64,000 bases of DNA from Pirellulales bacterium (GTDB lineage: Bacteria; Planctomycetota; Planctomycetia; Pirellulales; JACPPG01). How positions within the stretch are numbered: the first letter of the stretch is position 1; every line of letters begins with the position of its first letter. Positions 11,076-50,354 of the stretch are shown piece by piece. The notes under the pieces are model-generated. The model made no database searches. It had not been told where the DNA came from and was given only the letters and a program-made list of their open reading frames with translations. Made by a program: the position numbers and the translations under genes. The stretch lies in contig DASZWQ010000069.1 of the NCBI GenBank assembly GCA_035546535.1, forward strand, positions 1-64,000, written 5' to 3'.

Positions 11076-14000
11076 TCAGCGAAAATCGCGCGACCGCGAG
11101 CTCATCTGCCCTGAGATCTCGCGCACGTCGAGCAGGCGATTCACCAGGATGTGGATCACTTCGCCTTGCCGCTCCAGCTTTCCTTGTGCAAGCAGCGCCA
11201 CGGCGTTTTTTGCCGCTGGGCGAAAACGTTGCCAGACGTCGGGGCGAATCACCAGGTTGGCAACGCCCGTTTCGTCTTCCAGGGTGACGAACGTGATGCC
11301 GCTGGCCGTGCCGGGCCGTTGCCGAACGAGGACCAGCCCGGCCACGCGTACTTGCCGCCCCGGCCGCGCAGTGGGCAGTTCGTTGGCGCGCAATACGCCG
11401 AGCGTCGCCAGCTTGTCGCGAAAGAACGACATCGGATGCGCTCGCAGCGACAAGCCCGCAGTCTGATAGTCGGCCAGTACTTCTTCGTACGTCGTGAGTG
11501 CCGGCAGTGGAACGGCCGGTTCTTGCGAGGCGGGATCGGGCAAAGGATCGAAGAGCGGCATCTCGCGCGCCTGCTCGCCGGCCGCCAGCGCCTGCCATAA
11601 TCCTGCGCGCCGATCTAACTCCAGCGATCGCACTGCGTCGGCTTTGACCAAGCGCACCAGGAGGGGACGCCCCAAGCGCGCCCGTCGCGCCAGGTCGTCG
11701 AGCGAACGAAACGGTCCGTCGCGCCGCGCCGTGGCGATCCTTTCCACAACTCCCTCGGGCATACCGGACAGTAGGCGCAGGCCGAGACGCAAGGCGAAGT
11801 TGCCTTTTCCGGCGGTGCCATCGCTTATTGCGCCGGCACGCTCGCCCCTCACCCTGCCCTCTCCCCGCAGGGGAGAGGGGTTTCGTGGAACGCCGCTAGA
11901 GTGATTTTCTGCCCGCACCACCTCGCGCTCTGGGCATTCCTCCAGCGTGCAATTCCATTCGCTCAGATTCACGTCCGCCGGCAGAACGGTTACACCATGC
12001 TCGCGCGCGTCGCGTACGAGCTGAGCCGGCGCGTAAAAACCCATGGGCTGGCTATTGACCAGCGCCGCGGCGAACGCGGCTGGGTAGTAGTACTTCAACC
12101 ATGACGAGACGTACACCAGCAGCGCGAAGCTGGCCGAATGCGATTCGGGAAAACCGTATTCGCCGAATCCGCTGATCTGGTGGAATACGCTTTCGGCAAA
12201 TTCCAGCGACAGTCCGCGCGAGAGCATGCCCGAGATTAACCGTTGACGGAATTTCTCGATGACGCCGGTCTTGCGCCAGGCTCCCATGGCGCGGCGCAGC
12301 TGATCGGCCTCGCCTGGCGTGAAGCCGGCCGCAACCACGGCCAGCCGCATCGCCTGCTCTTGAAAGATCGGCACGCCCATCGTTTTGGCGAGCACCTGGC
12401 GAATTTCTTCGTTGGGGAAATCAACGGGCTCCAGGCCCGCACGGCGCCGCAAGTAAGGATGCACCATGTTGCCCTGGATCGGACCGGGGCGCACGATCGC
12501 TACTTCGATCACCAGATCGTAGAACTCGCGTGGGCGCAGCCGTGGCAGCATGCTCATCTGCGCGCGGCTTTCGATCTGAAACACGCCCATCGTGTCGGCG
12601 CGGCAGATCATCTCATACACAGCCTCGTCAGCCTGGGGGATGTTGGCCAGTGTCAGTTGCGGGCCGTAATGCTGCTCGACCAGGTCGAAACATTTGTGAA
12701 TGGCCGTCAGCATGCCCAGCGCCAGGCAGTCGACTTTCAAGATGCCCAGCTCGTCCAGGTCGTCCTTGTCCCATTGAATGACGGTGCGTCCGGGCATGGC
12801 GGCGTTTTCGATCGGCACCATTTCGCACAAAGGCCCGCGCGTCATCACCATGCCGCCGACGTGTTGGGACAAGTGGCGAGGAAAGCCGACCAGTTCTTCA
12901 ACCAGCGTGGCCAGTTGCTGTCCGAGCGCGCTCGCCGGATCGATGCCTGCTTCCGGCAATCCGGTGCGCCAGCGATCTTCGTACCCACGGCCATCAATAG
13001 TTTTGGCTAGCGCATCGACCCGGTCGAGCGACAGCCCGAGCGCCTTTCCCACGTCGCGCACGGCCGAGCGCAGCCGATAGGTGATCACCTCAGCGGTCAT
13101 ACCGGCCCGATCGCGACCGTATTTGTCGTACACGTATTGCAGGACTTCTTCGCGCCGCTCGTGCTCGAAATCGATATCGATGTCCGGCGCTTCGTTGCGC
13201 TCGGCGCTGACGAAGCGTTCGAATAGCACGTCGATTTGCTCGGGATCGACCGAGGTCACACCCAGGCAATAGCAAACGGCGGAATTAGCCGCCGAGCCGC
13301 GTCCCTGGCAGAGGATGTTGCGGCTGCGCGCGTAACGGACCAGGTCCCACACGGTGAGAAAATAGGCCTCGTAGTGCAATTGCTCGATTAAATGCAGCTC
13401 GTGTTCGACCAGCTCGCGCACTTTCGGCGGAATCCCCTGCGGATAGCGCTCGCGGACTCCGCGCCAGGTCAATTGCGTTAGATGCGCCTGCGCCGTGACA
13501 CCCGGCGGGCAAAGCTCTTCGGGATATTCGTAACGCAATTCTTCCAGCGAAAACGTGCAGCGATCGGCGATTTCGGCCGCGCGCGCGATCGCCTGGGGAT
13601 AATCGACGAATAACTCCGCCATTTCCGCCGGCGATTTCAAGTGCCGCTCGGCGTTGGCAAAGCCGCGCGGGCCGGCCTCGGCCACGGTCACTCCTTGCCG
13701 CGTTGCTGCCAGAACATCGGCCAAAACGCGCCGCTCGGGCACGTGGTAATGCACGTCGTTGGCTGCCACCAGCGGTAACCTCGCCCGAGCGGCGAGCGCT
13801 ACTATTTCAGCCAGCGATTGAGAATCGTCCGGTCCGCGATGCAACTCAGCCAACGCGTAAGCCCGATCGCCGAAGACTTCGCGATAGCGGGTCAGGGAAT
13901 CAGCGACCGGTATCTCCGCGTTTTTCTCTCTCAGAGAAGTGTGAAGAGAAGGCGAAGTGGCCATCTCAGCCCGCATCGGCAGCACTGCGTTATGCTCGCC

Positions 14001-14483
14001 GACCGGTTTCTTGCTGGAAAACGCAGTCGCGGGAGATGGTCGCAAGCAAACAAGCGCAAGCAGGCCGTCGGCATGCTCGGCCAGATCCGTTAGGCGTAGT
14101 TCGCACTCTCCTTTCGGCGCGCGCCGCCGGCCCAGGGTGAGCATGCGCGATAGGTTCGCATAGCCCAAACGATCGATGGCCAGGAGCACCACCGGGAGCG
14201 CGTCGAGAGGATGAATTTCGGCGCCGATGAGCAGCTTCAGGTCCACGGCCTTGGCCGCGGCATGAGCCCGCACCACGCCGGCCAGGCTTTCGCGATCGGT
14301 AACGGCCAGCGCCGCATACCCCAGCTCGGCGGCCCGGGCTACGAGTTCGTCAGGGTGGGACGCGCCGGTGAGAAATGAAAAGTTTGTCTTCGCATGCAGC
14401 TCGGCATAACGCACCGCCGGCGGCGCGCCATTCGCGTGCGCGACAAGTCGGATTTCACGTTTTGCCGGAGGAGGATCGGGCAT
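11076..14483 (-). CDS. dnaE2: Error-prone DNA polymerase III alpha subunit DnaE2
   Basis: An 1135-residue C-family polymerase used in damage-induced mutagenesis with ImuA and ImuB. The N-terminal PHP domain begins YAELHAKTNFSFLTGASHP, characteristic of DnaE2. The palm has the PDIDIDFEHERR motif with catalytic aspartates, and the C-terminus has the OB-fold region (VRVAGLVLVRQRPGTASG). Two stretches look foreign to the family: about residues 165-205, and about 860-890, where the repeat 11845-11880 is translated as NPSPLRGEGRVRGE. Both keep the frame. It is separated from imuB by the GxxExxY unit. ATG 14483 has no Shine-Dalgarno site; the insertion upstream may have displaced it, or the true start is slightly downstream. 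Confidence 0.93.
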   Translation of the reverse strand: MPDPPPAKREIRLVAHANGAPPAVRYAELHAKTNFSFLTGASHPDELVARAAELGYAALAVTDRESLAGVVRAHAAAKAVDLKLLIGAEIHPLDALPVVLLAIDRLGYANLSRMLTLGRRRAPKGECELRLTDLAEHADGLLALVCLRPSPATAFSSKKPVGEHNAVLPMRAEMATSPSLHTSLREKNAEIPVADSLTRYREVFGDRAYALAELHRGPDDSQSLAEIVALAARARLPLVAANDVHYHVPERRVLADVLAATRQGVTVAEAGPRGFANAERHLKSPAEMAELFVDYPQAIARAAEIADRCTFSLEELRYEYPEELCPPGVTAQAHLTQLTWRGVRERYPQGIPPKVRELVEHELHLIEQLHYEAYFLTVWDLVRYARSRNILCQGRGSAANSAVCYCLGVTSVDPEQIDVLFERFVSAERNEAPDIDIDFEHERREEVLQYVYDKYGRDRAGMTAEVITYRLRSAVRDVGKALGLSLDRVDALAKTIDGRGYEDRWRTGLPEAGIDPASALGQQLATLVEELVGFPRHLSQHVGGMVMTRGPLCEMVPIENAAMPGRTVIQWDKDDLDELGILKVDCLALGMLTAIHKCFDLVEQHYGPQLTLANIPQADEAVYEMICRADTMGVFQIESRAQMSMLPRLRPREFYDLVIEVAIVRPGPIQGNMVHPYLRRRAGLEPVDFPNEEIRQVLAKTMGVPIFQEQAMRLAVVAAGFTPGEADQLRRAMGAWRKTGVIEKFRQRLISGMLSRGLSLEFAESVFHQISGFGEYGFPESHSASFALLVYVSSWLKYYYPAAFAAALVNSQPMGFYAPAQLVRDAREHGVTVLPADVNLSEWNCTLEECPEREVVRAENHSSGVPRNPSPLRGEGRVRGERAGAISDGTAGKGNFALRLGLRLLSGMPEGVVERIATARRDGPFRSLDDLARRARLGRPLLVRLVKADAVRSLELDRRAGLWQALAAGEQAREMPLFDPLPDPASQEPAVPLPALTTYEEVLADYQTAGLSLRAHPMSFFRDKLATLGVLRANELPTARPGRQVRVAGLVLVRQRPGTASGITFVTLEDETGVANLVIRPDVWQRFRPAAKNAVALLAQGKLERQGEVIHILVNRLLDVREISGQMSSRSRDFR
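11845..11880. repeat. Short palindrome-rich repeat, copy 2, inside dnaE2
   Basis: This copy is inverted relative to 10967-11002 and has arms CTCTCCCC and GGGGAGAG. It falls within the coding sequence of dnaE2 and is read in frame, adding a PSPLRGEGRVRGE-like peptide between the fingers/duplex-binding part and the C-terminal region. Similar in-frame repeat peptides occur in proteins of many bacteria. Confidence 0.7.
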
Positions 14484-14503
14484 GCTGCACGTTTCATGAA
14501 AAA

Positions 14504-14647
14504 TATTTCACCACGGAGACACGGAGACACAGAGAAGAAATGGAAAGTCGGAATGCAGAGTGAGGAATGGAAAAATTGTGCGTCTTCCTATTCATTATTT
14601 GCATTTATCGTTTCCCCTTTTCTGTGTCTCTCTGTCTCTGTGGTGAA
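14504..14647. repeat. 'cacggag' hairpin repeat, copy A (within the GxxExxY unit)
   Basis: A ~144-base hairpin-forming repeat. Left arm 14507-14540 reads TTCACCACGGAGACACGG and onward to agagaag; right arm 14614-14647 reads inversely and ends CTGTGGTGAA. The interior also has imperfect dyad symmetry, with GAATGCAGAGTGAGGAA on one side and TTCATTATTTGCATTTA on the other. Related copies are at 25284-25456, 26392-26531 and (truncated) 62491-62596. Confidence 0.7.
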
Positions 14648-14652
14648 TGTTC

Positions 14653-15027
14653 CTATAGGACACGTCGCCGGATGCCGTCTTTGAGAACAGGCACGTTGAA
14701 ATTGATCAGCAAACCAACCGGCTTGGTGCTGAGCTTTAGGTATGTCAGCAGTTGCGCTTCGTGGATGGGTAGTAAGGCTTCGACACATTTCAACTCGAGA
14801 ACGACCGCATCGGCGACGACGATGTCTAACCGATAGCCGCAGTCGAGTGCCGCATCCTTGTACTGTACGAGTAGAGGAACCTGTCGTTTTAGAGCGATGT
14901 GGCGCAGCGACAGCTCGTGGCATAGGCATTCTTCATAAGCCGATTCCAACAAACCTGGCCCTAGGATCTTATGCACTTCAATAGCAGCCCCAATGATTTC
15001 GGTAGTGATCTGTTCGTGTTTCAACAT
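14653..15027 (-). CDS. GxxExxY protein (PD-(D/E)XK nuclease-like)
   Basis: A 124-residue protein of the GxxExxY family, recognised from [13 protein letters not shown], the motif that names it. The core has a restriction-endonuclease-like pattern: an Asp in YRLDIVVAD, then a strand ending in ELK, matching the D...(D/E)xK signature; whether it cuts DNA is unproven for the family. ATG 15027 follows GAGGG and gives the usual family length. The frame continues upstream to 15129 through the terminal repeat, where it would encode [10 protein letters not shown], a peptide often annotated at the N-terminus of such proteins but most likely just translated repeat. It lies between imuB and dnaE2 on the same strand. 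Confidence 0.85.
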
Positions 15028-15101
15028 GACAACCCTCACACTCTTCGGTCTTTTGTCTTCTCCGTGCCTCCGTGTCTCCGTGGTGAAATACGTTTTTCTC
15101 G

Positions 15102-16814
15102 TTAGTCGAAGTCTCCGTGCCAGAACCATTGGCCGTCGCTGCGACGGCGGAAGAGCCAGTGGCGGTGGCCGTCGGTGGTTTCTACACGGTAGTAATCACG
15201 CCGCACGCCGCGGCCGCGCCACCAGCCGGTTTCGATCCGTTCCGGTCCCCAACTGCGCGCCACGTGGCGGCGCTCATGCCCCAGCGTGAACCAGAGGAGT
15301 GGCCCATCCGGCACCACGGCGACCACGGTGAGCGGAATCGGAGCGGGGGCCAAACGCAGCGGCCGCTGCGACCATTTGAAGTGCCGCTCTTCGTGCACCT
15401 GCTCTTTGTTCTTGCCACGCGGCGAACGCCGGTCCGTATGTCGCCCGGCTCCGCGCCGCCCGGGCATGCGACGATCGAATCGTCGCGAGGGTTCATTTCC
15501 CACGAGCGGCTGGTAGCGGCAGGCCTCTTCCGGCTGCGGATCGCTCGACAATTGCGCATGCAAGACGCATTGCCGCCCCAAGCGGCTGCTCAGCCGATCG
15601 ACGAGCATGGCCAGCGCGCGCGGATCATCGCGGCCGGCTGAGATCTCGAATAATTCTCCCTGATGGCATTCCAGTAGTTCGGTCTTCGTCACAGCGATGC
15701 GGATTCCCGCCACTGGCTCGGTCAAGCGCAGCCGATCGAGCTGCATGCGCAGCAACTCGAACAAATAGCGCGGCGCGGCGCTAGGGCGCATTAATCCCAC
15801 CGAGATCGGCACGCGCATGCGCGTGTCTGCCCCTGCAACATTCTTCTGCCCTCTGCCCACTGCCTGCTGCCGACTACTTGCCAACAGCTCGCATTCCAGC
15901 CGTAAGACGCCGCGCTCCTCGCGTAAAAGCATGCCGGTCAATCGTTCCAATAATCGTTCGATGACCGCTTCGATCGCGCCGGCCTGCGCCACCGGCTGCT
16001 CAAACGGCCAGGTGGCTTCGAGCGCCGCGGAAATCGTTTCGGCGCGGATCACTTCCTCGGCTGCGCCGGTCAGTTGATCCCAGCGCCGCAAAAGTTCTGG
16101 ACCGAAACGGGTCGCCAGCGAAGGACGCGGCAGCTTGTCTAATTGCCCGATTTGCACGAGTCCCAGGTCGGCAAGCAAGCGAACTTCTTCCGCCGACAAG
16201 CGCAGGGCCGCAGTCGGCAAGTCGGCCACGGCCGACAGAGACTCTCCCGGTGCGATGATCATGCCGGCGCGAGTCCCCGCCGCCTCGGCGTAATGGGCCG
16301 CAGCCCAGGCGGCGCCGAGAGTATCGGCCAGTGCCAGGCGGATTTGCCAGCCTTGCGCGCGCAGCTCGCGCGCCACGCGCTCGACAAGCGCCGGCTCGCC
16401 GCCAAACGATGGCCCCAGCCCGGTCACGTCCAAAAACAAACTTTCCGGATGTGCCGTCTCTTCCAGTCCCACGACGGGGCTGAAACGTTCGCACCAGGTG
16501 GCCAGGGCCACGAGCGCATTGCGCGAGGACAGAGAATCGTAACGCTGGTAACAGCAGGCAGCTGGCCGCGCCCGATCCGCGGCCACCGCCGTAGCTTCGG
16601 CCAGCGGCATGCCGGGCCGGATCGAGCGCGCTTGCGCAGCCGGCGAGCAATAAGCAATGGCAAGCGCGCCGCGCGACGTCCTGTCGTAAAGCGCCACAGT
16701 CGCGCCACCGGCATCGCGCAAGACGTCACCAGGACGATTCTTACCCTCGGGCTGCGTGGCGCACCACTGCTGTAGCGGCCACTGCGGGAGCCAGACGCAC
16801 AATACCCGTTTCAT
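15102..16814 (-). CDS. imuB: ImuB, Y-family polymerase-like mutagenesis protein
   Basis: A 570-residue Y-family polymerase homologue. It begins [15 protein letters not shown], lacking the catalytic acidic residues of an active Y-family polymerase, as is known for ImuB, which serves as an adaptor linking DnaE2 to the sliding clamp. Later parts carry the helix-hairpin-helix-like [13 protein letters not shown] and little-finger regions; the C-terminus is very basic and Arg-rich. Residues ~309-327 (15835-15890) read [16 protein letters not shown], encoded by a low-complexity CTGCC-rich repeat, probably a later in-frame insertion. I chose ATG 16814 (a second ATG is at 16817); it overlaps the end of imuA by 74 bases, which implies coupling. 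Confidence 0.9.
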
Positions 16815-17463
16815 CATCGAGTTCCAGATCCCAAGTCCGTCCCCCTGCATTACCACGCAAGCGCAATAGCTCTACGCGCAATCGCCGTCCTGCCGTCGCA
16901 ACCAAAGGCGTGACCAGAAAACGCGCCTCGGCCCAGGAAGGATCACCGCGGGCGGCGGCCGGTCGAATCAATAAGCCCAGGTTTCCTCCCGCCTCGGCCG
17001 CCAGCTGCAGACGACGTCCCAGTCGTGGCGGACACTTTTCTAAACGGCACCACACGGCGGCCACGCCCGGCGATCGCAACGATTGATCCAAAGCCCATTG
17101 CTCGTCGGCCGCGTTCTCGGGCCGGACCACGATCAGCCGTGCCAGATCGAGCCCGGCGCGCGCGGCGGCCGGAGGGTAAAAGCTTTTTGTGCGATCGATG
17201 ACCACGACCGGCCCGCCATCGCGACACGCCTCGCGCGCCGCCGACAGCGCCAGGCTGCCGGCGCCGCTACCGACCCCCGGCGACAACCACTCGACGAGTG
17301 CCCCCCGACTCAATCCACCCCGCGGCAGCGAGCGGTCCATCTCGGCACAGCCGGTCGAAACCGATGCCCCCGTCCCGCGCCGGGCCCGAGAGAACCGCTC
17401 CAGGCTCTCCTGCAACTGGGCCACAATCTGTCGGCGGGGGGGCGATAAGTTCTTGTCTTTCAT
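16741..17463 (-). CDS. imuA: ImuA-like RecA-related protein
   Basis: A 240-residue RecA/SulA-like protein, first gene of the mutagenesis operon imuA-imuB-dnaE2. It has the family opening QIVAQLQ, the TGCAEMDRSLPRGGL segment and the strand VVVIDRTKSFYPPAA. The place of the Walker A loop (SPGVGSGAGSLAL) lacks the lysine, so ATP hydrolysis is doubtful, as in other ImuA proteins. In well-studied bacteria the cassette is controlled by LexA and acts in translesion synthesis and induced mutagenesis. ATG 17463 is preferred because an earlier in-frame ATG (17493) would lie inside the predicted promoter/operator. Confidence 0.82.
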   Translation of the reverse strand: MKDKNLSPPRRQIVAQLQESLERFSRARRGTGASVSTGCAEMDRSLPRGGLSRGALVEWLSPGVGSGAGSLALSAAREACRDGGPVVVIDRTKSFYPPAAARAGLDLARLIVVRPENAADEQWALDQSLRSPGVAAVWCRLEKCPPRLGRRLQLAAEAGGNLGLLIRPAAARGDPSWAEARFLVTPLVATAGRRLRVELLRLRGNAGGRTWDLELDDETGIVRLAPAVAATAVVRHAARG

Positions 17464-17480
17464 CGCATTACTCGTGCTAG

Positions 17481-17512
17481 CGATACTGTACATTTGTATC
17501 GTATTTTGTCAA
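17481..17512 (-). promoter_or_regulatory. imuA promoter with embedded palindromic operator
   Basis: Reading the minus strand, TTGACA (17507-17512) and TACAGT (17485-17490) form -35 and -10 boxes with a 16-base spacer, about 20-25 bases before the imuA start. A perfect inverted repeat CGATAC-N9-GTATCG (17481-17501) overlaps the -10 box and most of the spacer, the position expected for a repressor site. Because imuA-imuB-dnaE2 cassettes are usually SOS genes, a LexA-type operator is the natural guess, but the motif matches neither the enterobacterial nor the Gram-positive LexA box. Confidence 0.5.
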
Positions 17513-17663: not shown

Positions 17664-20600
17664 TCACTCGGGCAGCGCGAGTGGCGTCCATTCGATATCG
17701 CAGCGCGTGTGCAGCCGCGAAGCAAGCGCCGCGCAGTGCGGCTGCCCATCGACGAGCGAAGCCGCGACCTCCCACAGAGGCAAGCCGGCCACTTCGTAGC
17801 ACAAGGCCGGGTCATTGGCACTGTCGACGACCACCGACGGGGCATGGCCGGCAATCCTCGTTACCCCTTCGGCGAGTGCCGCGACATCTTCCGGCCGATT
17901 GGTCAGCACGAGAAGCCGGCGATTGCCGCCGCACATGGCCAGCTCTGGCATGGCCTCGGCCAGGCAGGATCGCAAGAGCTCGTCCTCCGAACCCGGCGAT
18001 TCATTCTCCTCAAGCGCTCCACGTGCCACGGTGGCTGAACGTACGGCCGACAACACCGCCGCGCGGGAACGTGTTCGTAACGCGGCTATGAGCTGCTCGC
18101 GAAAATCCTTGCCGCCGGCGAGCGCGGCGGACAATCCGCCCCGTGGAGCGATCAGTTCGCGCTCGAATTCCTCGTCCAACTGGGCGACGATTTCTGGCAG
18201 GCGCTGCTGGGCAATCTCTCGCAACGCCGCATCAACCGCCGCCGCCCCGGACGCGTGTGCCTCGCGACGCCTCGCATCATCATGCGCAAACAGTGTGGCC
18301 AGCCGCGACAATTCGCGGCGCGTCTCGGACAATTGCTCGGCGATCGTCGACAATTCCCAAGTCAACATCTGCGCGTATTTGACCGCCGAGGCGAATACCG
18401 TATCCATGAATTTCAGACTGGCGTAATGCAGCAGGCGCGACTGTTGCTCGGCCGGCGAGGCTTGGGCGCTGCCCCGCGCGGGCCACAGCCGCGATCGCGA
18501 CTTGCCACCGATCACCGCCCCGGCTGCCGAGCGCAACTCGTCGCCTGTCTTGGCGCGTACTTTTTGCGCCGTGTCTCGAAGCTCGCGCACGTGCCGCGAG
18601 ATTTCTTCCATCGCGCGGGCAGCTCCGGCCAGCCGCACGCGATGATTGTTCGTCAACTCGACGACCCACGCTCGCAGCGCCGCCCCGTGCTGCCGGCTTG
18701 TTTCGCGCATGTGCGTTTCGAGCGCGGTAACCAGTACGGTTGGGTCGGCTCCTGAAGCGGGAAGGCCCAGAACACGGTCGAGCGCCGCCAGTTGCGGATG
18801 CATTTCGTCATCGAAGCCGCCCGTCGCCGGCGATTTCAACGGGACTGCAGCTGCTTGAGTTGTTAATTCCTGCAGGAACGCGTCGACGTCGCCGCCAAGG
18901 CCTGAGGCGGCTGCTTGTTCGAGCTGTTCGGTGACATGATCGAGCGACAAGCCCAAAAGCGCGATGCGCTCACTTGTCAGCCGGTCGGTTTCGGCACTGG
19001 ATGAGGTACCGATCGCCGGGTGTGCGGAATGCCCGGACGCCGCAGCCTGCCTGTCACGGCCGTCCGGTGCAGTGCCGCACCACAGAGCAAGGAGCGCACC
19101 GCATGCGTCGTCGGCGGCTGTGGCCACGACTTCATCTCCCGCCCCCAGGCGGCAGACTCCAAAAGTGCGGAGCGCCGGTTCTGCCGCTCGCCCGTCGGCC
19201 GCAGGATCCGACGACTCGCGGCGCGCGGCGTCCAGCCATGAACCTGCCACGGCCGTGGAGCTGAGAAACAGATAATCGGCCACCGAGCGAGCAACGCCTG
19301 GCAGGTCGTGCTCTCCCAACTCGTCGCCGAGATTGACCAAGTACATGCCCGGCAGGCGCGCGTCGCTAGGGCTGCTCGGCGGCAGCCCTAGCGATGGTTC
19401 GCCAGGGTAGCCGTGCTCGCAAAAGTGCGCGAGCTCGCTAAGCACGCCAAAGGTGTTAGCCACGGCCAGCTCGTGGGCCGACGCATTGCGTCTCGACCAG
19501 TGCAATAGCAGCACGCTCAGGCAATCGTCCGGCAGGCCACGATCGCGCAGCAGTCGGCGGAGCAGGTAAGCGACGTCGAGCGCCATGCCACCGCCGGTGC
19601 CGCCGCAGATCGACGCGACGAGCATGAGGCGCGGAGCGTTGTTGCCGGCAGGCAAGCCAGTCTGCCCGGCGCTAGCCTCGATCGCTGCCGCCGCAGTGAT
19701 GGCGTCGAGTGCCGCAGTCAACTGCTCGACCAGTGGCTCGGCATGGTCCACCATGGCGAGCCGGCCCAGCGGCCGTAACCCTTCGGTCTCGAGCGAACGG
19801 GGAATGTTGTACAGCCAGCGGCGGCTCATCCACGCTAAAAACTTGGTCGAGCCGTGCCGATAATCTTCCGGCTTGCGCAGCGGCATCGCCAGAAACTCGC
19901 CGACACTTCGTGTCCGCTCGGGCGCGGCATCGGCGGCGACGTCGCTCGGATCGGTATCGAAGGCCAGCATTTTCAATGCCGGCAGCTTTTGCAAATCACC
20001 GAAGCGATCCGCCAACCGGCGTTCGAGTTGATTCACGACGAGCCGCGCGGTCCCTCCCACTCCCACCATCAAGAGCGGCCGAAAGGCAGCCTCGAGCGAC
20101 GCATTAAGCGGAGGCAAGTCGTGGACGACCGGCTTGGCCCGTGGACGGCGATGCGGCGCGGCGACGCCGGACTCTTTGGCGGGAGCCGGCGCCAGCGGCT
20201 TTTCCAACGACTTCGCGGCGTGGCCATTCAAGGCCGTGGCGGCCCCGGAGTCGATCAATTCTTCCGGGACGCCTTTGTCCGAGGCGCTGACGCAGGTCGC
20301 CGAAGTTACCTCCTCGGAGGAAGGTATTTCTTGGCGCGCCGTTCCACCGTCGAGCATTTGCGTCGAGGTCTCGGGCAACGGGCCCACTGGGGCGGCCGGG
20401 CGCGCTTGATGGGTGTCGCCGATGGCCAGCGGCGTCGTCTCGCCGCCGACGGTTCCGGCCGGCTTGGCTTCGGCAGGAGATCGGCCCGCCGTTGTCAATG
20501 CGTCGACCATGGCCCGGGCCGTGCCGAAGCGCGCGGCCGGGTCTTTGGAAAGGGCGCGATCGATAATGGGCTTGTCGTCGGGCGGCAGCGCGGTCAGACG

Positions 20601-21287
20601 CGGTCGGCTTTGCAGATGCTGCGCTGCCAGTTGGGCCGTGGTCTTGCCCGGGAACGGCAGCGTGTCGGTGAGCATCTCCTGGTAGACGATCGCCAGGCTG
20701 TATTGATCGCTGCACTGGCTGGGGCGATCGTCGAACACCTCAGGCGAAGCGTAAATCGGCGTCAGGCCACCCATCATCGAAGCCCGGGTATCGTCGATGT
20801 CTTTGACGAGCCCGAAATCCGCGACCTTGACGTGACCCGCAACCAGCAGCAGATTCTCGGGCTTAACGTCGAGATGCTGCAGCGAATACTTGTCGCGCAT
20901 GTAGTCGAGCGCATCGGCGGCGTCGCGCAAATAGCCCAGTAACTCGTCGCGGGGAATGCCGACCATGCCGGCGGCCTTGCACTGGTCGTGCCGGTCCTTG
21001 AGGCTCATGTCGGCCAGCTCGGTAACGATGACCAACTGGCCGTCGACGACTTCGATGCGTTCGAGCGAGAGCAGGAAGGGATGCCGCACGAGCTTGACGC
21101 GCGACAGGGCTTTCAGCTCGCGCCGCGCGCGTTCGTCGTCGAGATATCCATAGACGAACTTGATGGCCTTGGTGAGGCCGCCGGGCGCCGTGGCCTTCCA
21201 CACTTCGCCGTAGCCGCCGGCGCCGATACGTTCGGTTACTTCGTAGCCGAGTATCGGTTCGCGGGTGCGAGTCGCTGACGTTGCCAC
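17664..21287 (-). CDS. Ser/Thr protein kinase fused to tubulin-like (FtsZ-superfamily) domain
   Basis: A 1207-residue fusion. Residues ~14-265 are a eukaryotic-type kinase: GAGGYGEVW P-loop, AIKFVYGY with the ATP-binding Lys, LQHLDVKPENLLL catalytic loop (HLD in place of HRD), ADFGLVK and YASPE. A ~130-residue low-complexity linker follows. From ~405 the protein is tubulin-like: VGVGGTARLVV opens a Rossmann-type fold and ICGGTGGGMALD (~563) matches the GGGTGTG signature of FtsZ/tubulin; the remainder is long and helical. GTG 21287 starts 3 bases after the FHA-EAL gene's stop, with AGGTGA overlapping that stop, so the two are cotranscribed. I infer GTP-dependent assembly regulated by phosphorylation; no membrane segment is seen. 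Confidence 0.85.
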   Translation of the reverse strand: MATSATRTREPILGYEVTERIGAGGYGEVWKATAPGGLTKAIKFVYGYLDDERARRELKALSRVKLVRHPFLLSLERIEVVDGQLVIVTELADMSLKDRHDQCKAAGMVGIPRDELLGYLRDAADALDYMRDKYSLQHLDVKPENLLLVAGHVKVADFGLVKDIDDTRASMMGGLTPIYASPEVFDDRPSQCSDQYSLAIVYQEMLTDTLPFPGKTTAQLAAQHLQSRPRLTALPPDDKPIIDRALSKDPAARFGTARAMVDALTTAGRSPAEAKPAGTVGGETTPLAIGDTHQARPAAPVGPLPETSTQMLDGGTARQEIPSSEEVTSATCVSASDKGVPEELIDSGAATALNGHAAKSLEKPLAPAPAKESGVAAPHRRPRAKPVVHDLPPLNASLEAAFRPLLMVGVGGTARLVVNQLERRLADRFGDLQKLPALKMLAFDTDPSDVAADAAPERTRSVGEFLAMPLRKPEDYRHGSTKFLAWMSRRWLYNIPRSLETEGLRPLGRLAMVDHAEPLVEQLTAALDAITAAAAIEASAGQTGLPAGNNAPRLMLVASICGGTGGGMALDVAYLLRRLLRDRGLPDDCLSVLLLHWSRRNASAHELAVANTFGVLSELAHFCEHGYPGEPSLGLPPSSPSDARLPGMYLVNLGDELGEHDLPGVARSVADYLFLSSTAVAGSWLDAARRESSDPAADGRAAEPALRTFGVCRLGAGDEVVATAADDACGALLALWCGTAPDGRDRQAAASGHSAHPAIGTSSSAETDRLTSERIALLGLSLDHVTEQLEQAAASGLGGDVDAFLQELTTQAAAVPLKSPATGGFDDEMHPQLAALDRVLGLPASGADPTVLVTALETHMRETSRQHGAALRAWVVELTNNHRVRLAGAARAMEEISRHVRELRDTAQKVRAKTGDELRSAAGAVIGGKSRSRLWPARGSAQASPAEQQSRLLHYASLKFMDTVFASAVKYAQMLTWELSTIAEQLSETRRELSRLATLFAHDDARRREAHASGAAAVDAALREIAQQRLPEIVAQLDEEFERELIAPRGGLSAALAGGKDFREQLIAALRTRSRAAVLSAVRSATVARGALEENESPGSEDELLRSCLAEAMPELAMCGGNRRLLVLTNRPEDVAALAEGVTRIAGHAPSVVVDSANDPALCYEVAGLPLWEVAASLVDGQPHCAALASRLHTRCDIEWTPLALPE

Positions 21288-21290
21288 GGT

Positions 21291-22454
21291 TCACCTGCGT
21301 AACGACGCTTCCAAGGTGTGCTCGACAGAACGATCTGCCACGCTCGCGGCCTGGCCGGGTTTGCCGAACAGGTTACCTTCGCCGTACGCGATGCCCAGAT
21401 CGTGGCAGGTGCGCGATTCTTCCTCGGTCTGCAAGCCGGTGGCGATGGCCATGCTGCCCAGGTCGTGGCACGCACGTACGATCGATTGAATTTGCCGCTG
21501 CCGTTCGGGTTGGCGATGAATGCCGGTTGTCAACGACGAAGCGAGCACGAGGAAATCGGGGGGCACGCTTTTCTTTTCCGAGACTTGCGCGTGCGTCCCT
21601 GCGAAGCCCTGGTACGCCGTGCGGATGCCTAGTTCGCGCAGCCCCAGCCGTAACGTCTGAAAATAAGGGATGTCGCAGACCACGGTCTCGGGGATCGAAA
21701 TGACCAGACGGTGACCTGCGGGCAGGAGCCTGGTGAGCAAGGTTAACGAGTCGAATAAGGCATCGCTGCCAATTTCGGCCGCTTCTACCGGCAAGAACAG
21801 GTTGTCGCCCAGGCCGTGCCGGGTCGATTCTTCGACGGCGATCAGCCGCGCCAGTTGGTACAAATGTCCGGCCACGCGCGGCGCCGAGGCCAGCACCAAT
21901 TGTTCACAGGGGATCGCCGGCTGCTCGGTGGAAGAACGGAGCGCCTCATGGCCGAAGATGCGATGCGATCCCAGATCAATCACTGGCCGGAAATGAACAT
22001 CGACGCTTCGTTGCGTCAGTGACTGCTGCAAGCGGCGGATCGCGCGAACCAGGTCGCGGCCTTGGGCCGCGTCGCTGGTCGTGTTACCAACCTCGGCCAC
22101 TTCCGTGGCCATGGAATACGACCGGCCGGAGCGCTCGGCGTAAAAGGTGAATTCGACGCCGGCGATGACCAGGATGTCTCCGTCGGCGAGTTCGGCGTCT
22201 TGAATCCTTTGGCCGTTCAGCAGCGTGCCATTGGTGCTGTGCAGGTCGCGAACGCGATACGTTTTTCCTTCGCGCAGGATGACGGCGTGCTCGCGCGAAA
22301 CGCGGCTGTCGTCAATTTGCAAATCGGCTGATTCGACACGCCCGATCGAGAAGGGGAAGGAGTGCAGGGGATGCTGCAGCGCATCGGCCCCCTCGCGTAG
22401 CCGTTCCAGCCAGGGGACTCCGACGACGCGCTTTTCCATTAATTGCGTTTGCAT
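21291..22454 (-). CDS. FHA domain protein with degenerate EAL domain
   Basis: A 387-residue protein. Residues ~20-105 are an FHA domain (FSIGRVESADLQIDDSRVSREHA, then DLHSTNGTLLNGQRI), which binds phosphothreonine. Residues ~130-375 are an EAL-type phosphodiesterase fold with GHEALRS at the start and YGEGNLFGKP at the end. Nearly all catalytic positions are changed: NVS is PVE, EITE is SIPE, DDFG is QGFA, the KxD is VLA, and AEGVET is ATGLQT. It is therefore very unlikely to hydrolyse c-di-GMP. It is directly upstream of, and coupled to, the kinase-tubulin gene, so its FHA may bind a target of that kinase. ATG 22454 has no clear ribosome site; a second ATG lies at 22439. Confidence 0.85.
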   Translation of the reverse strand: MQTQLMEKRVVGVPWLERLREGADALQHPLHSFPFSIGRVESADLQIDDSRVSREHAVILREGKTYRVRDLHSTNGTLLNGQRIQDAELADGDILVIAGVEFTFYAERSGRSYSMATEVAEVGNTTSDAAQGRDLVRAIRRLQQSLTQRSVDVHFRPVIDLGSHRIFGHEALRSSTEQPAIPCEQLVLASAPRVAGHLYQLARLIAVEESTRHGLGDNLFLPVEAAEIGSDALFDSLTLLTRLLPAGHRLVISIPETVVCDIPYFQTLRLGLRELGIRTAYQGFAGTHAQVSEKKSVPPDFLVLASSLTTGIHRQPERQRQIQSIVRACHDLGSMAIATGLQTEEESRTCHDLGIAYGEGNLFGKPGQAASVADRSVEHTLEASLRR

Positions 22455-22961: not shown

Positions 22962-24386
22962 ATGACATGGCCAGCCATGACACCGAAACCACTGAAGGTC
23001 CTGCTCGTCGCACCCGACAAATCGTTGCTCGGATCGCTGTCAAAACTATTCGATTTGTTGGGGCTTTCGGCGCTCCAGGTGACCGACCCCCGCCAGGCCG
23101 CGGCGGCCGCGGCGAGTGAACGACCAGATATTCTGATTCTTGATGCCGATCTATTGGATCAAGGTGGTCGCGAGCTTTGTCGTGCCGTGTGCGGCGGTGG
23201 GCTGCGCAGCCACGTGTTTACGCTGCTCTTGGTGCCCGACGGCGCGCCTTTGGAAGATATGATCGAGGCGCTAAAGCTCGGCGTTGACGATTTTCTGGCC
23301 AAGCCGGTGGTCTTCGGCGAATTGTTGTCACGGCTGCGGGCTGCCGCGCGGGGGTTGGAGTACGAGCGCCGTGTGCAGGTTTATTTCGGCACCGACGCGC
23401 TCTTGGGGCTGCCGAACGAAAACGCTTTCCGTCACGCGCTGTCGGCCGCGCTCGCCAGGCCCGATCGGGGCGGGCCGGTCGCGTGCGTGGCCTTCGACTT
23501 GGATTTTTTCAATCGCCTGAATTACACGTACGGGCATCCGCAGGCTGACGAGGCGTTGCGTGGCGTCGCGCGGCTGCTGACGAAAACGTGCCGGCCAAAC
23601 GAACTGGCTGCCGCGCGCGGCGATGATCAGTTTTGCGTGCTGCTGCCGAATCGGAATGAAGCGGACGCCGGACATTGGGCGGAGCAGTTTCGCGCGGCGC
23701 TCGAAGAAACGCAATTTTCGCTCGGCACGGCCGTGGAAACGATCACGGCCAGCTTCGGCGTTGCAACGGGCGAACCGGGCGACTGCCAGGCGGATACTCT
23801 ACTGGCCAGCGCGACCGAGGCGCTTGGTGCCGCCAAGCGCGCCGGGCGGAACTGCGTCGTACTGCGCAGCTCCCTGGATGATGAGGCGAACGCCTGGACC
23901 AACCTCGGGGCACCGGGCAAGTTGTTCGATCGCACCGTGGCGCGCGACGTCATGGTTCCCCTGTCGATCACGCTGAAGCCACACGATTCGCTCGAGCACG
24001 CGGCAGCAATCTTCGAGCGGACGGCACAACCGGCGCTGCCGGTCGTCGACGACGAGGGAAACCTGGCCGGCCTGCTGTTTGTCGAGGAACTGCAGTCGCG
24101 AAACAGCGACGGTCACCACACGAAGCAACTCGTACGAAACGTAATGGATGCCGATCCCGTCCGTTTCGCCGAGCAGACCACCTTTGCCGAGCTGGTCAGC
24201 TTCTTCAGCCAGGACGCCCGCGGGCTGGCGCTTATTACGGACGGAACCCGGCCGATCGGAGTCGTTACGCGCAACGAACTGGCGTCACTCTCCGAACCAT
24301 TGACGGTCGCGAGTTTTGCCACGAGTGACGACAATGCGTCGACGAGCGATTACTTGATCGTGCCGTCGACGTCGGATGGCTCGTAA
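22962..24386 (+). CDS. Receiver-like + degenerate GGDEF + CBS pair protein
   Basis: A 474-residue three-domain protein. Residues ~6-120 resemble a response-regulator receiver (LKVLLVAPDKSLL, ILILDADLLDQGG with the phospho-acceptor Asp, and FLAKPVVFGEL with the conserved Lys). Residues ~125-290 are a GGDEF domain (DALLGLPNENAFR, FDLDFFNRLNYTYGH), but the signature is GDDQF instead of GG(D/E)EF at ~residue 220, so cyclase activity is doubtful. Residues ~305-455 hold two CBS motifs (ARDVMVPLSITLKPHDSLEHA and NVMDADPVRF) that commonly bind adenosyl nucleotides. It is divergent from the FHA-EAL/kinase pair. The start could be 22962 or 22977; neither has a clear ribosome site. Confidence 0.82.
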   Translation: MTWPAMTPKPLKVLLVAPDKSLLGSLSKLFDLLGLSALQVTDPRQAAAAAASERPDILILDADLLDQGGRELCRAVCGGGLRSHVFTLLLVPDGAPLEDMIEALKLGVDDFLAKPVVFGELLSRLRAAARGLEYERRVQVYFGTDALLGLPNENAFRHALSAALARPDRGGPVACVAFDLDFFNRLNYTYGHPQADEALRGVARLLTKTCRPNELAAARGDDQFCVLLPNRNEADAGHWAEQFRAALEETQFSLGTAVETITASFGVATGEPGDCQADTLLASATEALGAAKRAGRNCVVLRSSLDDEANAWTNLGAPGKLFDRTVARDVMVPLSITLKPHDSLEHAAAIFERTAQPALPVVDDEGNLAGLLFVEELQSRNSDGHHTKQLVRNVMDADPVRFAEQTTFAELVSFFSQDARGLALITDGTRPIGVVTRNELASLSEPLTVASFATSDDNASTSDYLIVPSTSDGS

Positions 24387-42773: not shown

Positions 42774-44099
42774 ATGTCTGCTACGGAAACCACGGGCCGC
42801 GACAGCGTATTAGCCGCGGTGCTGTCCGACGAAGGATTCTTTCCGGCCGAGCCACACTCGATTGAAGAAACGGGCCTGGCCGTTTCGCTGATCGAGTCGT
42901 TGATTGCCAAGCAGCTATCGACGATCGGCACCTCCAGCGGCCGGGCTTTGGCCGATGCCCTGTGCCTGCCCTTCGGCGTGCTCGATCCCTTGTATCAAAG
43001 CCTGCGCACGCGGCAGATTCTGGTACACACCGGCTCGGCGCCGTTGAACGACTACTACTACACACTCACCGAACAGGGGCGCGAGCGGGCCGCGGCATTT
43101 CGCGACGCCTGTGCTTATACCGGTGCGGCGCCGGTGCCCATGTCTGACTATCTGCTGTCGGTCGAAGCGCAATCGATCCGGGCCGAAGCGCCCAAGCGTT
43201 CGAAACTAGAGAAGGCGTTCGCCGACATCTCGATCAATCCCGCGCTGTTCGACAGCCTGGGCCCGGCCGTGAACTCGGGCGCGGGCTTGTTCTTGTATGG
43301 CTCGCCTGGCAATGGCAAATCGACGCTGGCCCGGCGGATCACGGTTTGTTTTGGCCAGCACATCTGGATGCCGCAGACGTTGATCGAGGATGGGCAGATC
43401 ATCAAGCTCTTTGATAGCGTCTATCACGAAGCGGTCGAGAACAAGCAATCAACGCTGATGAAGGCGGCCTCGCACGATCGGCGGTGGGTCAAAGTGCGCC
43501 GTCCGACGGTCATCGTTGGTGGCGAGCTGACGATGGACGGCCTGGAAATTCGCCACGACCCGGTCAGCAATACCAGCGAAGCGCCGCTACAATTGAAGAG
43601 CAATTGCGGCTGTCTGTTGATCGACGACTTCGGCCGCCAGCGGATCGAGCCGCGGGAGCTTCTGAATCGCTGGATCATTCCGCTGGAAAACCGAATGGAT
43701 TTTCTCACCCTGTCGACGGGCAAGAAGATCCGCGTGCCGTTCGAGCAGTTGATCATCTTCTCGACGAACCTCGAACCCTCGGATCTGGTCGACGAAGCCT
43801 TCTTGCGGCGGATTCCCTACAAGATCCAGATCAACGACCCGGACGAATCCGAGTTTCACCATCTCTTCGAGCTGTACGCCGTGGGTTTTGGCTGCGACTA
43901 CCGCGCGGACGTGGTGGATCATCTGTTGCGGACGCACTACCGGGCCCACAATCTGCCGATGCGCCGCTGCCATCCGCGCGATCTGTTGGGCCAGGTGCGC
44001 AATTACTGCGTATACAACGGCCTGCCGATGGAAATGCGGCCCGAGTATTTCGACCGCGTGGTGAAGAGTTACTTCACGGTTCTGGCTACGGCGAAGTAA
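42774..44099 (+). CDS. AAA family ATPase with N-terminal winged-helix-like region
   Basis: A 441-residue protein. Residues ~25-120 form a winged-helix-like segment (GLAVSLIESLIAKQLSTIG, then LPFGVLDPLYQSLRTRQIL, then the wing YYYTLTEQGRERA). The ATPase core has Walker A GSPGNGKST (~176), Walker B CLLIDDFGRQRI and an arginine-finger candidate in EAFLRRIPYKI. The C-terminal lid ends with CHPRDLLGQVRNYCVYNGLP. Close relatives occur in bacteria with pilus or secretion loci; no such locus is visible here. GGAGG precedes the ATG. Its exact role is unknown. Confidence 0.85.
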   Translation: MSATETTGRDSVLAAVLSDEGFFPAEPHSIEETGLAVSLIESLIAKQLSTIGTSSGRALADALCLPFGVLDPLYQSLRTRQILVHTGSAPLNDYYYTLTEQGRERAAAFRDACAYTGAAPVPMSDYLLSVEAQSIRAEAPKRSKLEKAFADISINPALFDSLGPAVNSGAGLFLYGSPGNGKSTLARRITVCFGQHIWMPQTLIEDGQIIKLFDSVYHEAVENKQSTLMKAASHDRRWVKVRRPTVIVGGELTMDGLEIRHDPVSNTSEAPLQLKSNCGCLLIDDFGRQRIEPRELLNRWIIPLENRMDFLTLSTGKKIRVPFEQLIIFSTNLEPSDLVDEAFLRRIPYKIQINDPDESEFHHLFELYAVGFGCDYRADVVDHLLRTHYRAHNLPMRRCHPRDLLGQVRNYCVYNGLPMEMRPEYFDRVVKSYFTVLATAK

Positions 44100-46693: not shown

Positions 46694-46756
46694 GTAGGGT
46701 GCCCTCTGGCGCCACGGTTTTATCGCTGGCGCGATGGTGCCCACACGGCACCCTAC
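46694..46756. repeat. Inverted repeat GTAGGGTGCC / GGCACCCTAC over the GCS2 stop
   Basis: Ten-base perfect arms at 46694-46703 and 46747-46756, 63 bases in all. The right arm supplies the TAG stop codon of the GCS2 gene (46753-46755). The string TAGGGTGCCG also occurs at about 36080-36090. Confidence 0.6.
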
Positions 46757-48000
46757 AAAAGCATCTCGCCGCGCGTTAGACAATCGCACAGTCGGGCAAA
46801 TTCACGCGCTTGGGCGTGGCGGTCGTCGGCTCGGTTTCCAAGCCTGTGCAAAAGGCGTCGCGCGAGCGGCCCTTCACGCAGGATCACCTCCAAGGCGCGA
46901 TCCGTCTCCGGCGTGCGTGCCGGCCGGTCGGCGACGCGCTCATTGATATGCCGCCACAGTTCGGCCGCCGTCGCTGACGACGCCTTCATACCGAACAGGC
47001 GCAAGTAGTCGGCGTCGCGGACCACGGCCTGTTCGCCCTCGCGAATCGCGGCCAGCAGGATTTCTGCTAATCGTTCGGCGGGCCAGGCCTGCTGCTCGTC
47101 GAGCGTACCAAAGCGCCCGTCGGCCAGTCCGCGCAACGTTCCGACGGCCAAACCGCAGATCGCCAAATCCGCCGCCGGGCATTCCTGGATATCGAGGACG
47201 CGAATTTCAATCGTGTTCCGCTCGAACCGCGCGATCGCACCCCGAGCGTTCAGCCATTCCTCCTGCAAGACGCCATCCGGATCGTGCGGTGCGATCTCGG
47301 CGTACAGCGTGTTCAAAATGACCTGCCGGTAATCCGCTTCGCTGAACACCGCTTCCGGAACCACGTGCCCGGTGACCGAAGGGATGCGTCGGCTGTTCGT
47401 GCGATAGACGTCCAGGCGCGTGTCGAGAATGCCGGTCGCCCGGCCGTCGACGATGGGGCTGCTGGCCGCCAAGGCGGGCAGAATCGGAAGGACAAGGCGA
47501 ATCGCGGCGTGCAACCGGCCGAACTCGGCGTCGTCGCCGAACGGCAGATTCAGATGCACGCTTTGCAGGTTCGACCAGCCATGCCCCTGACAGTTGAAGA
47601 TACGGTTAAAGGCCGCGTAGATCTCGTTGCAATCGTGCGGCCAAAGTTTGGTTTCGCGCGCGGGATCCATCCACGGATGCATACCGCCGGGCATGAGCTG
47701 AGCGCCATGTCTCGCGAGCAGTTCGTTGATGCGACGTACCTGCGCCTGGAAAGATCCGGCCAGCGGCGCCAAGGACGGCGCGGGATCGGTCGTTTTCAGT
47801 TCGACGACGTGGGCCACCAGTTCGTTCGACCAGGAGACGTCGCCTGCCTCGACGTCGCCGACGTATTCCTCGCCGCCGGTCGCGTCGCGCATCAGCTCGT
47901 CGGCAATAGGCCGCACGTCGAGCGACTGCGCATCGACGATCATGTATTCCAGCTCGACGCCGAAAGCCTCGAACAAACGTAGTCGCAGGGCGGTGCTCAC
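46753..48000 (-). CDS. Glutamate-cysteine ligase-like (GCS2) carboxylate-amine ligase
   Basis: A 415-residue member of the GCS2/YbdK family, which joins a carboxylate to an amine using ATP. Core motifs are GVELEYMIVD, GGMHPWMDP and GHGWSNLQSVHLNLPFGDD. The start is GTG 48000, overlapping the TGA of the RimK-like gene as GTGA, with GAGG seven bases before, so the two are translationally coupled. It need not make gamma-glutamylcysteine: no glutathione synthetase is present, and the partner is a RimK-like ligase. The stop codon lies in an inverted repeat (46694-46756). A class II amidotransferase gene follows. Confidence 0.88.
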   Translation of the reverse strand: MSTALRLRLFEAFGVELEYMIVDAQSLDVRPIADELMRDATGGEEYVGDVEAGDVSWSNELVAHVVELKTTDPAPSLAPLAGSFQAQVRRINELLARHGAQLMPGGMHPWMDPARETKLWPHDCNEIYAAFNRIFNCQGHGWSNLQSVHLNLPFGDDAEFGRLHAAIRLVLPILPALAASSPIVDGRATGILDTRLDVYRTNSRRIPSVTGHVVPEAVFSEADYRQVILNTLYAEIAPHDPDGVLQEEWLNARGAIARFERNTIEIRVLDIQECPAADLAICGLAVGTLRGLADGRFGTLDEQQAWPAERLAEILLAAIREGEQAVVRDADYLRLFGMKASSATAAELWRHINERVADRPARTPETDRALEVILREGPLARRLLHRLGNRADDRHAQAREFARLCDCLTRGEMLL

Positions 48001-49466
48001 GAGATCCTCTTGCCAGCCTTCGTGGCTTCGATGCGTTCCAGAAATACATCCATCATGCGGGTGTACAACTCGTTCTTCAGAAAGTTGTCTTCCACGCCGG
48101 CGTCGATGTTCGGGTTGTCGTTGACTTCGATGACGTAGCAGTGCCGGCCGCTCTGTTTGATGTCGACGCCATACAGGCCATCGCCGATCAAGTTCGCAGC
48201 CTTTAGCGCCGTGCTGATCACCTGGCGCGGCGCCTGCTGCACGGGAAAGGTTTCGGTGCGGCCGTAGCGGCGCTTGCCCGACGCTTCGTTCTTCACGATC
48301 TGCCAATGATCCGTCGCCATGTGATACTTGCAGGCGTACAAAGGCTGGCGGTCGAAAATGCCGACACGCCAGTCGTAAGCCGTGGGCAGAAACTCCTGGG
48401 CGATCAGCAGGTCGGATTTTTCCAGGAACTTTTCGGCACAGTCGTCGAGCATCTGCTGGCTTTCGACTTTCACCACTCCCAAGGAAAAGGCGGCATCCGG
48501 CTGCTTGAGCACGCAGGGGAAGCCGAGTTCATCCCCGATCGTGCCGATGTTGTCCTTGTTTACGATTACGGTGCGCGGGATGGCGATCTTGTGCCGGGAC
48601 AATAGCTCGGCCAGGTAGACCTTGTTCGAGCAGCGCAAGATCGATTCCGGATCGTCGACGACGACCAGCCCTTCCATCGCGGCGCGCCGCGCGAAGCGGA
48701 AGGTGTGGTGGGCCACGGCCGTGGTCTCGCGAATGAACAGCGCGTCGAACTCGGCGAGCCGGGCATAATCGTCCCGCCCGATCAGGTCGGTTTGCAGCCC
48801 AGCGGCCTCGGCGGCGCGGACGAAGCGGTCGAGTGCTTTCTCGTCCGACGGCGGCAAAGGCTCGTCGGGATTGACCAGGATCGCCAGGTCGTACTTGGCG
48901 AGGTTGCGCTTGCGCGGCGAAGCCCGGCGACCGGAAAAATGCTCGGTCGCCACGTCCAGCACGAACGGCCGATGTTGCGGCGGAATGCCGTCGACCGGCA
49001 CGGGTCCGATCTGCCGCAACTGCCACTTGCCGTTCTTGGTGAATTGCGCCCGCAAGAGCGGCGCCTGAAACAGGTTGAACAAGTGCAGGCTCAAGCGATC
49101 ATAGCGCCGCGCCAGGTTGCGGCCGAAGTAGATACTGAGCGTGAACTTGTCCGATTCGATAGGCGCCAAGCTGGATTGAATCAAATCATCCAGGTCATCC
49201 GAGACGAAGCGCACCACGGTCTGCGACTTCATGTCCTGGATGGTCATGATGTTCGGCAGCGGCTTGTGCCCCCGCGCGGTCGCCAGCAGCGTCACGTAGT
49301 AGCCCAGGCTTTGATAGCGGTAGGAACGGCACAGGTTAAAGACCTTGGCCCCGCGGACCTCGCCGTACTCGGGCTTGGTGAGGTAGCTTTTCGCATCGAT
49401 GACCGCCACCCCCGGTATTTGAAACGGCCACTCGCTGACGTTGTTAACGACGATCAATACCGGCAT
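47997..49466 (-). CDS. RimK-like ATP-grasp ligase with N-terminal RLAN-type domain
   Basis: A 489-residue ATP-grasp amidoligase. The first ~200 residues (PVLIVVNNVSEWPFQIPGV, VFNLCRSYRYQSLGYYVTLLA) match the domain found at the N-terminus of some RimK-like proteins. The ATP-grasp region (~260-480) has CSNKVYLAELLSRHKI, FPCVLKQPDAAFSLGV, LLIAQEFLP, and the metal-binding YVIEVNDNPNID. Such enzymes add amino acids to a peptide or protein. AAGGAAG precedes ATG 49466, which overlaps the upstream peptidase gene by 23 bases, and the 3' end overlaps the GCS2 start. Confidence 0.9.
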   Translation of the reverse strand: MPVLIVVNNVSEWPFQIPGVAVIDAKSYLTKPEYGEVRGAKVFNLCRSYRYQSLGYYVTLLATARGHKPLPNIMTIQDMKSQTVVRFVSDDLDDLIQSSLAPIESDKFTLSIYFGRNLARRYDRLSLHLFNLFQAPLLRAQFTKNGKWQLRQIGPVPVDGIPPQHRPFVLDVATEHFSGRRASPRKRNLAKYDLAILVNPDEPLPPSDEKALDRFVRAAEAAGLQTDLIGRDDYARLAEFDALFIRETTAVAHHTFRFARRAAMEGLVVVDDPESILRCSNKVYLAELLSRHKIAIPRTVIVNKDNIGTIGDELGFPCVLKQPDAAFSLGVVKVESQQMLDDCAEKFLEKSDLLIAQEFLPTAYDWRVGIFDRQPLYACKYHMATDHWQIVKNEASGKRRYGRTETFPVQQAPRQVISTALKAANLIGDGLYGVDIKQSGRHCYVIEVNDNPNIDAGVEDNFLKNELYTRMMDVFLERIEATKAGKRIS

Positions 49467-50187: not shown

Positions 50188-50354
50188 CGTCCCCGCAACC
50201 TCCCGGCTGACCCCGCCTGGGCAGGGCTGCAACAGGCAATCGACAGAGTTCTTCGCGCCGCCGCAGATTTTACCCCGTTTGCCGATTTTGGACGAGAGCA
50301 AGAGCGGGGCGGAGGCATGCGGCGAATAGGATCGCTGGCTGGAGAGGGCGCAAG

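Follow-up and report, generated by a model that had tools for sequence, protein, structure and literature searches.

A kinase–Tubulin_2 (FtsZl1) fusion gene in a Pirellulales genome and its conserved FHA-EAL, GGDEF and AAA+ partners

Analysis of a 64,000-nucleotide stretch of a Pirellulales bacterium (contig DASZWQ010000069.1 of assembly GCA_035546535.1, positions 1 to 64,000; hereafter the window) centred on a single gene, which encodes a Hanks-type Ser/Thr protein kinase fused to a tubulin-like domain of the FtsZl1/Tubulin_2 family. The open frame of 1207 codons runs on the minus strand from 21287 to 17664; the first-pass annotation had located it correctly at 17664-21287 and gave no strand, which is supplied here. 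Its central observation, that both domains reside in one polypeptide, is confirmed, as Pfam profiles for Pkinase and Tubulin_2 match the same 1207-residue frame. A chance origin of the fusion can be ruled out because of the profile E-values (Table 1), the G+C content of the three codon positions (71/51/75%), and the existence in the same genus of homologues with equal length and architecture and 52-66% identity. The direct flanks of the gene are formed by FHA-EAL, GGDEF-CBS and ImuA/ImuB-like genes. A sequence scan of the fusion protein revealed no hydrophobic segment resembling a transmembrane helix, and a membrane anchor within it was rejected on this basis.

Table 1. Coordinates of the fusion gene, its domains and neighbouring genes in the window
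Feature	Position	Strand	Basis and remarks
Kinase-Tubulin_2 (FtsZl1) fusion	17664..21287	minus	1207 amino acids, GTG start; open reading frame, Pfam, homologues of same architecture
Hanks-type Ser/Thr kinase domain, residues 15-260	20508..21245	minus	PF00069 (Pkinase) E=3.9e-30; conservation
Ser/Thr-rich linker of low conservation, residues ~265-396	20097..20493	minus	TQML motif (Thr309) fitting T[QE]hh
Tubulin_2 GTPase-like domain, residues 406-724	19116..20072	minus	PF13809 E=8.6e-34; AlphaFold2 model and Foldseek
C-terminal region, long helices then small strand-containing end	17667..19112	minus	AlphaFold2 secondary structure; conservation
FHA-EAL protein, 387 amino acids from ATG (MQTQLMEK...)	21291..22454	minus	Pfam; stop 3 nt before fusion start
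Response regulator-GGDEF-CBS protein	22977..24386	plus	Pfam; divergent from FHA-EAL gene; motif GDDQF
Module-specific AAA+ ATPase	42774..44099	plus	Profile match 1.3e-243; genome distribution; AAA+ fold
DNA polymerase III alpha-type gene	11076-14483	minus	Domain search
IMS/ImuB-type Y-family gene	15102-16856	minus	Domain search
RecA-like/ImuA-type gene	16741-17493	minus	Domain search

The kinase-tubulin fusion as such is already known. The first-pass annotation had implied that it was a new idea, but it was published in 2010, when Makarova & Koonin defined the family FtsZl1 and listed four planctomycete members with an extra N-terminal kinase domain (PMC2875224), and again in a 2023 study of FtsZ/tubulin families, in which planctomycete Tubulin_2 proteins likewise carry a kinase (PMC9871819). 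The gene in the window resembles the published proteins in domain family, kinase-tubulin order, helical or coiled-coil C-terminal half and tubulin-type glycine loop. No paper assigning a function to any FtsZl1/Tubulin_2 protein was found, and the main texts of papers covering division or essential genes in planctomycetes pass over the fusion gene.

The kinase domain retains its glycine loop, the catalytic lysine (K43), the HxD motif as HLD (138-140), the DFG motif (D157-G159) and the activation-loop threonine (T176), as expected of a Hanks-type kinase. All of these are invariant or near-invariant in relatives, together with E57, K142 and N145, and the fused kinase is apparently active.

The first-pass annotation had named a profile search against tubulin-like families and a structure prediction of the C-terminal part as ways of checking its assignment; the profile search upheld it, and so did the structure prediction with regard to the tubulin fold. 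The PF13809 profile matched with a score of 117.8 bits against a curated cut-off of 27, placing the protein in FtsZl1/Tubulin_2. The domain contains a T1-like loop (GVGGTA at 409), a DTD at 444, and a T4-like glycine loop, CGGTGGG at 561-567, embedded in ASICGGTGGGM starting at 558. The latter loop, with the consensus SGGTGSG in relatives, is a near variant of the published signature GGGTG[ST]G. Residues G411, G412 and G562, and much of the block RRWLYNIP...GLRPLGR, are invariant or near-invariant in relatives. AlphaFold2 modelling of residues 396-1207, with 38 relatives included in the input, gave a mean predicted local distance difference test score (pLDDT) of 86.8 and a predicted template-modelling score (pTM) of 0.80. 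All top Foldseek matches of the model in the PDB belong to the tubulin superfamily, namely CetZ (E=1.2e-4), gamma-tubulin, phage TubZ and BtubA, each with probability 1.00; a sequence search against solved structures gave only kinases among the 60 matches listed. The residues outside the matched part form mostly long helices (456-485, 490-531, 550-604 and more, in model numbering), ending in a small portion with strands. The C-terminal tail RLHTRxDIxW is conserved, with A1189, R1191, R1195, D1197 and W1200 kept in relatives. What the protein has in common with CetZ, TubZ, gamma-tubulin and FtsZ is the tubulin fold predicted for its GTPase half; the fusion differs from all of them in its low identity within the structural matches (~9-13%), its large helical C-terminal region and the lack of a PF00091 match.

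Reading of gene order around about 60 loci showed that the fusion has recurrent partners. An FHA-EAL gene is present in 43 of 43 fused loci outside family f23, representing 14 family codes. It lies upstream of the fusion on the same strand in the window; elsewhere it may also be downstream or divergent, so that the linkage survives rearrangement. Full-length FHA-EAL proteins were defined by a profile E-value below 1e-60, which sets them cleanly apart from lone FHA or EAL domains. On this definition, PF13809 and FHA-EAL occur together in 46 of the order's 119 genomes, PF13809 alone in 4, FHA-EAL alone in 5 and neither of them in 64 (Fisher p=1.8e-22, the genomes not being independent). The phosphothreonine-binding residues of the FHA domain (G-R, S, H, N-G) are near-invariant in 39 proteins and invariant in 21. 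A kinase-less Tubulin_2 gene (L036, genome G004) comes after an AAA+ gene, and a genome-wide profile search of G004 detected no full-length FHA-EAL protein; this one case fits an FHA protein serving the kinase.

The second partner is an AAA+ ATPase with no Pfam family, which lies next to the fused gene at 34 loci and next to a kinase-less Tubulin_2 gene at one; in the genome of the window it is displaced by ~18 kb. Its structure model has the AAA+ fold (pLDDT 76). Members of its subfamily, defined by a score of at least 700 bits, were counted by eye in 46 of the 119 genomes, each of which bears PF13809; paralogues scoring about 530-640 bits extend also to genomes that lack the fusion. The majority of the order's genomes contain a further member of the AAA+ family (G000:C54:37667-38932 and its equivalents); no recurrent neighbour was common to most of the seven stretches compared around it, and these gave no functional clue. 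The third partner is a GGDEF protein, which takes one of two forms. In 23 loci including the window it is encoded by a divergent response regulator-GGDEF-CBS gene; at loci L067 and L102-L104 its gene belongs to a co-directional operon in the order diguanylate cyclase, FHA-EAL, AAA+ and fusion.

In the lineage of the window, the two putative cyclic di-GMP (c-di-GMP) proteins have lost their catalytic motifs together. When seven EAL catalytic positions were scored for each locus, all seven were kept in 20 loci and zero to four in 23. The window belongs to the latter class, keeping one of the seven, so that its EAL domain lacks the hallmarks of a phosphodiesterase, with the FHA motifs intact. Every one of the 23 loci with degenerate EAL has the divergent GGDEF gene, and the GG[DE]EF motif typical of diguanylate cyclases is lost in 23 of 23, being GDDQF in the window. 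Among loci with intact EAL, the GGDEF motif is intact in all four that have such a gene; the other 16 have no GGDEF gene nearby. The motif states of the two proteins therefore match exactly, and the FHA ligand residues stay near-invariant throughout while EAL decays. It may be inferred that the lineage of the window kept the reading of phosphothreonine and lost c-di-GMP turnover.

The linker holds a candidate target of the kinase. In the degenerate class, the FHA-EAL protein often starts with MxT[QE]hh (MQTQLM in the window), and the motif T[QE]hh, derived from this N-terminus and chosen after the sequences had been seen, occurs in 19 of 43 kinase-tubulin linkers versus 2.2 expected by shuffles (maximum 9 in 1000, with relatedness ignored). 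The reversed motif was found 2 times and the serine version 0 times among the same linkers. The stricter pattern was used because plain 'TQ' is just mildly enriched (20 of 44 linkers versus 11.5 expected). The enrichment of T[QE]hh is suggestive of a phosphosite.

These features can be combined in a scheme in which the kinase would phosphorylate threonines of its own linker (TQML/TQVF-like), of the FHA-EAL N-terminus (MQTQ), or of both. By binding phosphothreonine, the FHA domain would anchor its protein to the tubulin-like core. Where the motifs are intact, c-di-GMP may in this way be hydrolysed, and sometimes also made, at the structure; in the lineage of the window both c-di-GMP partners would be non-catalytic ligand sensors or adaptors. 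The tubulin-like domain may bind GTP and assemble, possibly via the long helices, with GTP governing assembly, and the AAA+ ATPase would disassemble or remodel the product. We favour, with about even confidence, the interpretation that an FtsZl1 protein with a fused, apparently active kinase is the core of a conserved module with FHA-EAL, GGDEF and dedicated AAA+ proteins, acting as an accessory cytoskeletal or membrane-organising scaffold and not as a substitute for FtsZ. The fuller picture is tentative: planctomycetes would have a module, not described before, whose tubulin-like polymer phosphorylates itself and possibly recruits a pair of c-di-GMP enzymes through FHA-phosphothreonine contacts, along with a dedicated AAA+ disassembly factor. 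The result would be a bacterial cytoskeleton under the direct control of phosphorylation and c-di-GMP, with both enzymes turned into pseudoenzyme sensors in the lineage of the window.

Several points weigh against the scaffold interpretation. GTP binding, polymerisation and kinase activity, like every functional step of the scheme, are predictions deduced from sequence. The model aligns only modestly with tubulins, its template-modelling scores (TM-scores) by target reaching no more than 0.46-0.49, and therefore only part of the tubulin fold is matched; the T7 catalytic loop and the polymer interface were not recognised in the fusion. The linker that holds the candidate phosphomotif is poorly conserved, less than half of the sequences have the motif, and its shuffled controls take no account of common descent. 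The intact or degenerate state of the c-di-GMP proteins needs about 3-4 changes on the fusion tree, and decay by many independent events was rejected for this reason. Genomes of family f23 carry three fused paralogues each, with no FHA-EAL or AAA+ gene nearby; hence the fusion does not need these partners everywhere, and the association is not absolute. The f23 kinase-Tubulin_2 paralogues (L106-L114) form a separate clade.

The strongest alternative, which we consider rather unlikely, is that the protein is mainly a signalling scaffold, whose tubulin-like domain is a non-polymerising GTP sensor gating the kinase, with FHA-EAL, GGDEF and AAA+ proteins downstream. Two of the partners are indeed signalling-type proteins, the fold matches are partial, and the 2010 analysis identified in FtsZl1 none of the polymer elements found at the C-terminus of FtsZ/tubulin (PMC2875224). 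However, the fusion conserves its glycine loops in the manner of relatives that form polymers, and the long helices and dedicated AAA+ remodeller better suit an assembling structure.

Replacement of FtsZ in the asymmetric division (budding) of planctomycetes appears improbable. As the first-pass annotation had assumed, the genome lacks canonical FtsZ: a profile search found no match to PF00091, and just 3 of 294 genomes sampled from the phylum have one. A tubulin-fold protein, encoded by the single PF13809 gene of the genome, is thus present where FtsZ is absent. The suggested role in division is weakly supported, as most FtsZ-less relatives are without PF13809: 50 of the 119 genomes examined in the order carry it, and 25 of the 294 in the phylum sample. 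FtsZ loss is near-universal in the phylum but PF13809 is patchy, which speaks against the latter as a general FtsZ substitute, and replacement was rejected as the principal interpretation. Makarova & Koonin likewise took the usual co-existence of FtsZl1 with FtsZ elsewhere as an argument against a role in division (PMC2875224). Frames of 445-460 amino acids in three other genomes of the phylum (G228, G247 and G270, family f74) match PF00091 and, weakly, PF13809, and are possible FtsZ-like genes.

It is similarly doubtful that the locus encodes a membrane-remodelling or vesicle system of the kind proposed in 2010 for other FtsZl1 proteins, with vWA, GTPase and OmpA partners (PMC2875224). The fusion belongs to the same family, but it has no transmembrane-like segment and its recurrent neighbours differ: the published operons contain vWA, P-loop GTPase, OmpA and separate kinases, whereas FHA-EAL, GGDEF and an AAA+ ATPase with no Pfam family are found here. 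No vWA, GTPase or OmpA gene was recognised beside the fusion, a genome-wide vWA search not having been made. FHA, GGDEF and EAL are unmentioned in the main text of the 2010 paper (PMC2875224), and a full-text search of the open-licence literature for planctomycetes with FHA and EAL domains found no paper, which is not proof of absence. With its conserved signalling/AAA+ surroundings and its paired pseudoenzymes, the locus appears to represent a distinct variant of FtsZl1 systems. An anti-phage defence system is very improbable and was rejected: the PADLOC matches of the kinase (mad6, PD-T4-6) cover the generic kinase fold only, the ATPase match to IetA is weak, FHA-EAL and GGDEF proteins have no match, and conserved gene content over 14 family codes does not seem island-like.

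The partner set also recalls two known regulatory systems. In the GarA/OdhI switches, a Hanks kinase acts with an FHA protein bearing a short N-terminal threonine motif (ETTSVF), and the output is metabolic enzymes. The present locus shares the kinase and an FHA protein with such a motif (MQTQ); it differs in its predicted output, an EAL-type domain and a tubulin-like protein. LapD-like proteins are c-di-GMP receptors with degenerate GGDEF/EAL domains, and the likeness lies in catalytically degraded EAL and GGDEF kept in conserved proteins. Here, the degraded domains are FHA-linked and divided between two separate proteins.

Other features of the window include an ImuA-ImuB-DnaE2-like mutagenesis cassette adjoining the fusion gene (11076-17493, minus strand), and a HEAT-repeat-like protein with a C-terminal Hint (PT-HINT) domain (57867-59699, minus strand; PF07591 E=2.5e-16). 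A possible peptide-modification cluster (46753-50301, minus strand) encodes a GCS2-type glutamate-cysteine ligase, a RimK-like ATP-grasp protein with an RLAN domain and a C39-like peptidase.

The conserved partner genes, not visible to the first-pass annotation, are more informative than the fusion itself. For a family first described in 2010, the small and repeatedly conserved set of FHA-EAL, GGDEF and AAA+ partners yields testable hypotheses on the control of one FtsZl1/Tubulin_2 protein, namely kinase autophosphorylation, FHA docking and AAA+ remodelling, and so opens the family to experiment. The joint loss of catalytic motifs by EAL and GGDEF offers a natural experiment on enzyme pairs turning into receptors. 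In planctomycetes, which lack FtsZ, any protein of tubulin fold that has regulators of its own is a candidate for a cytoskeletal element.

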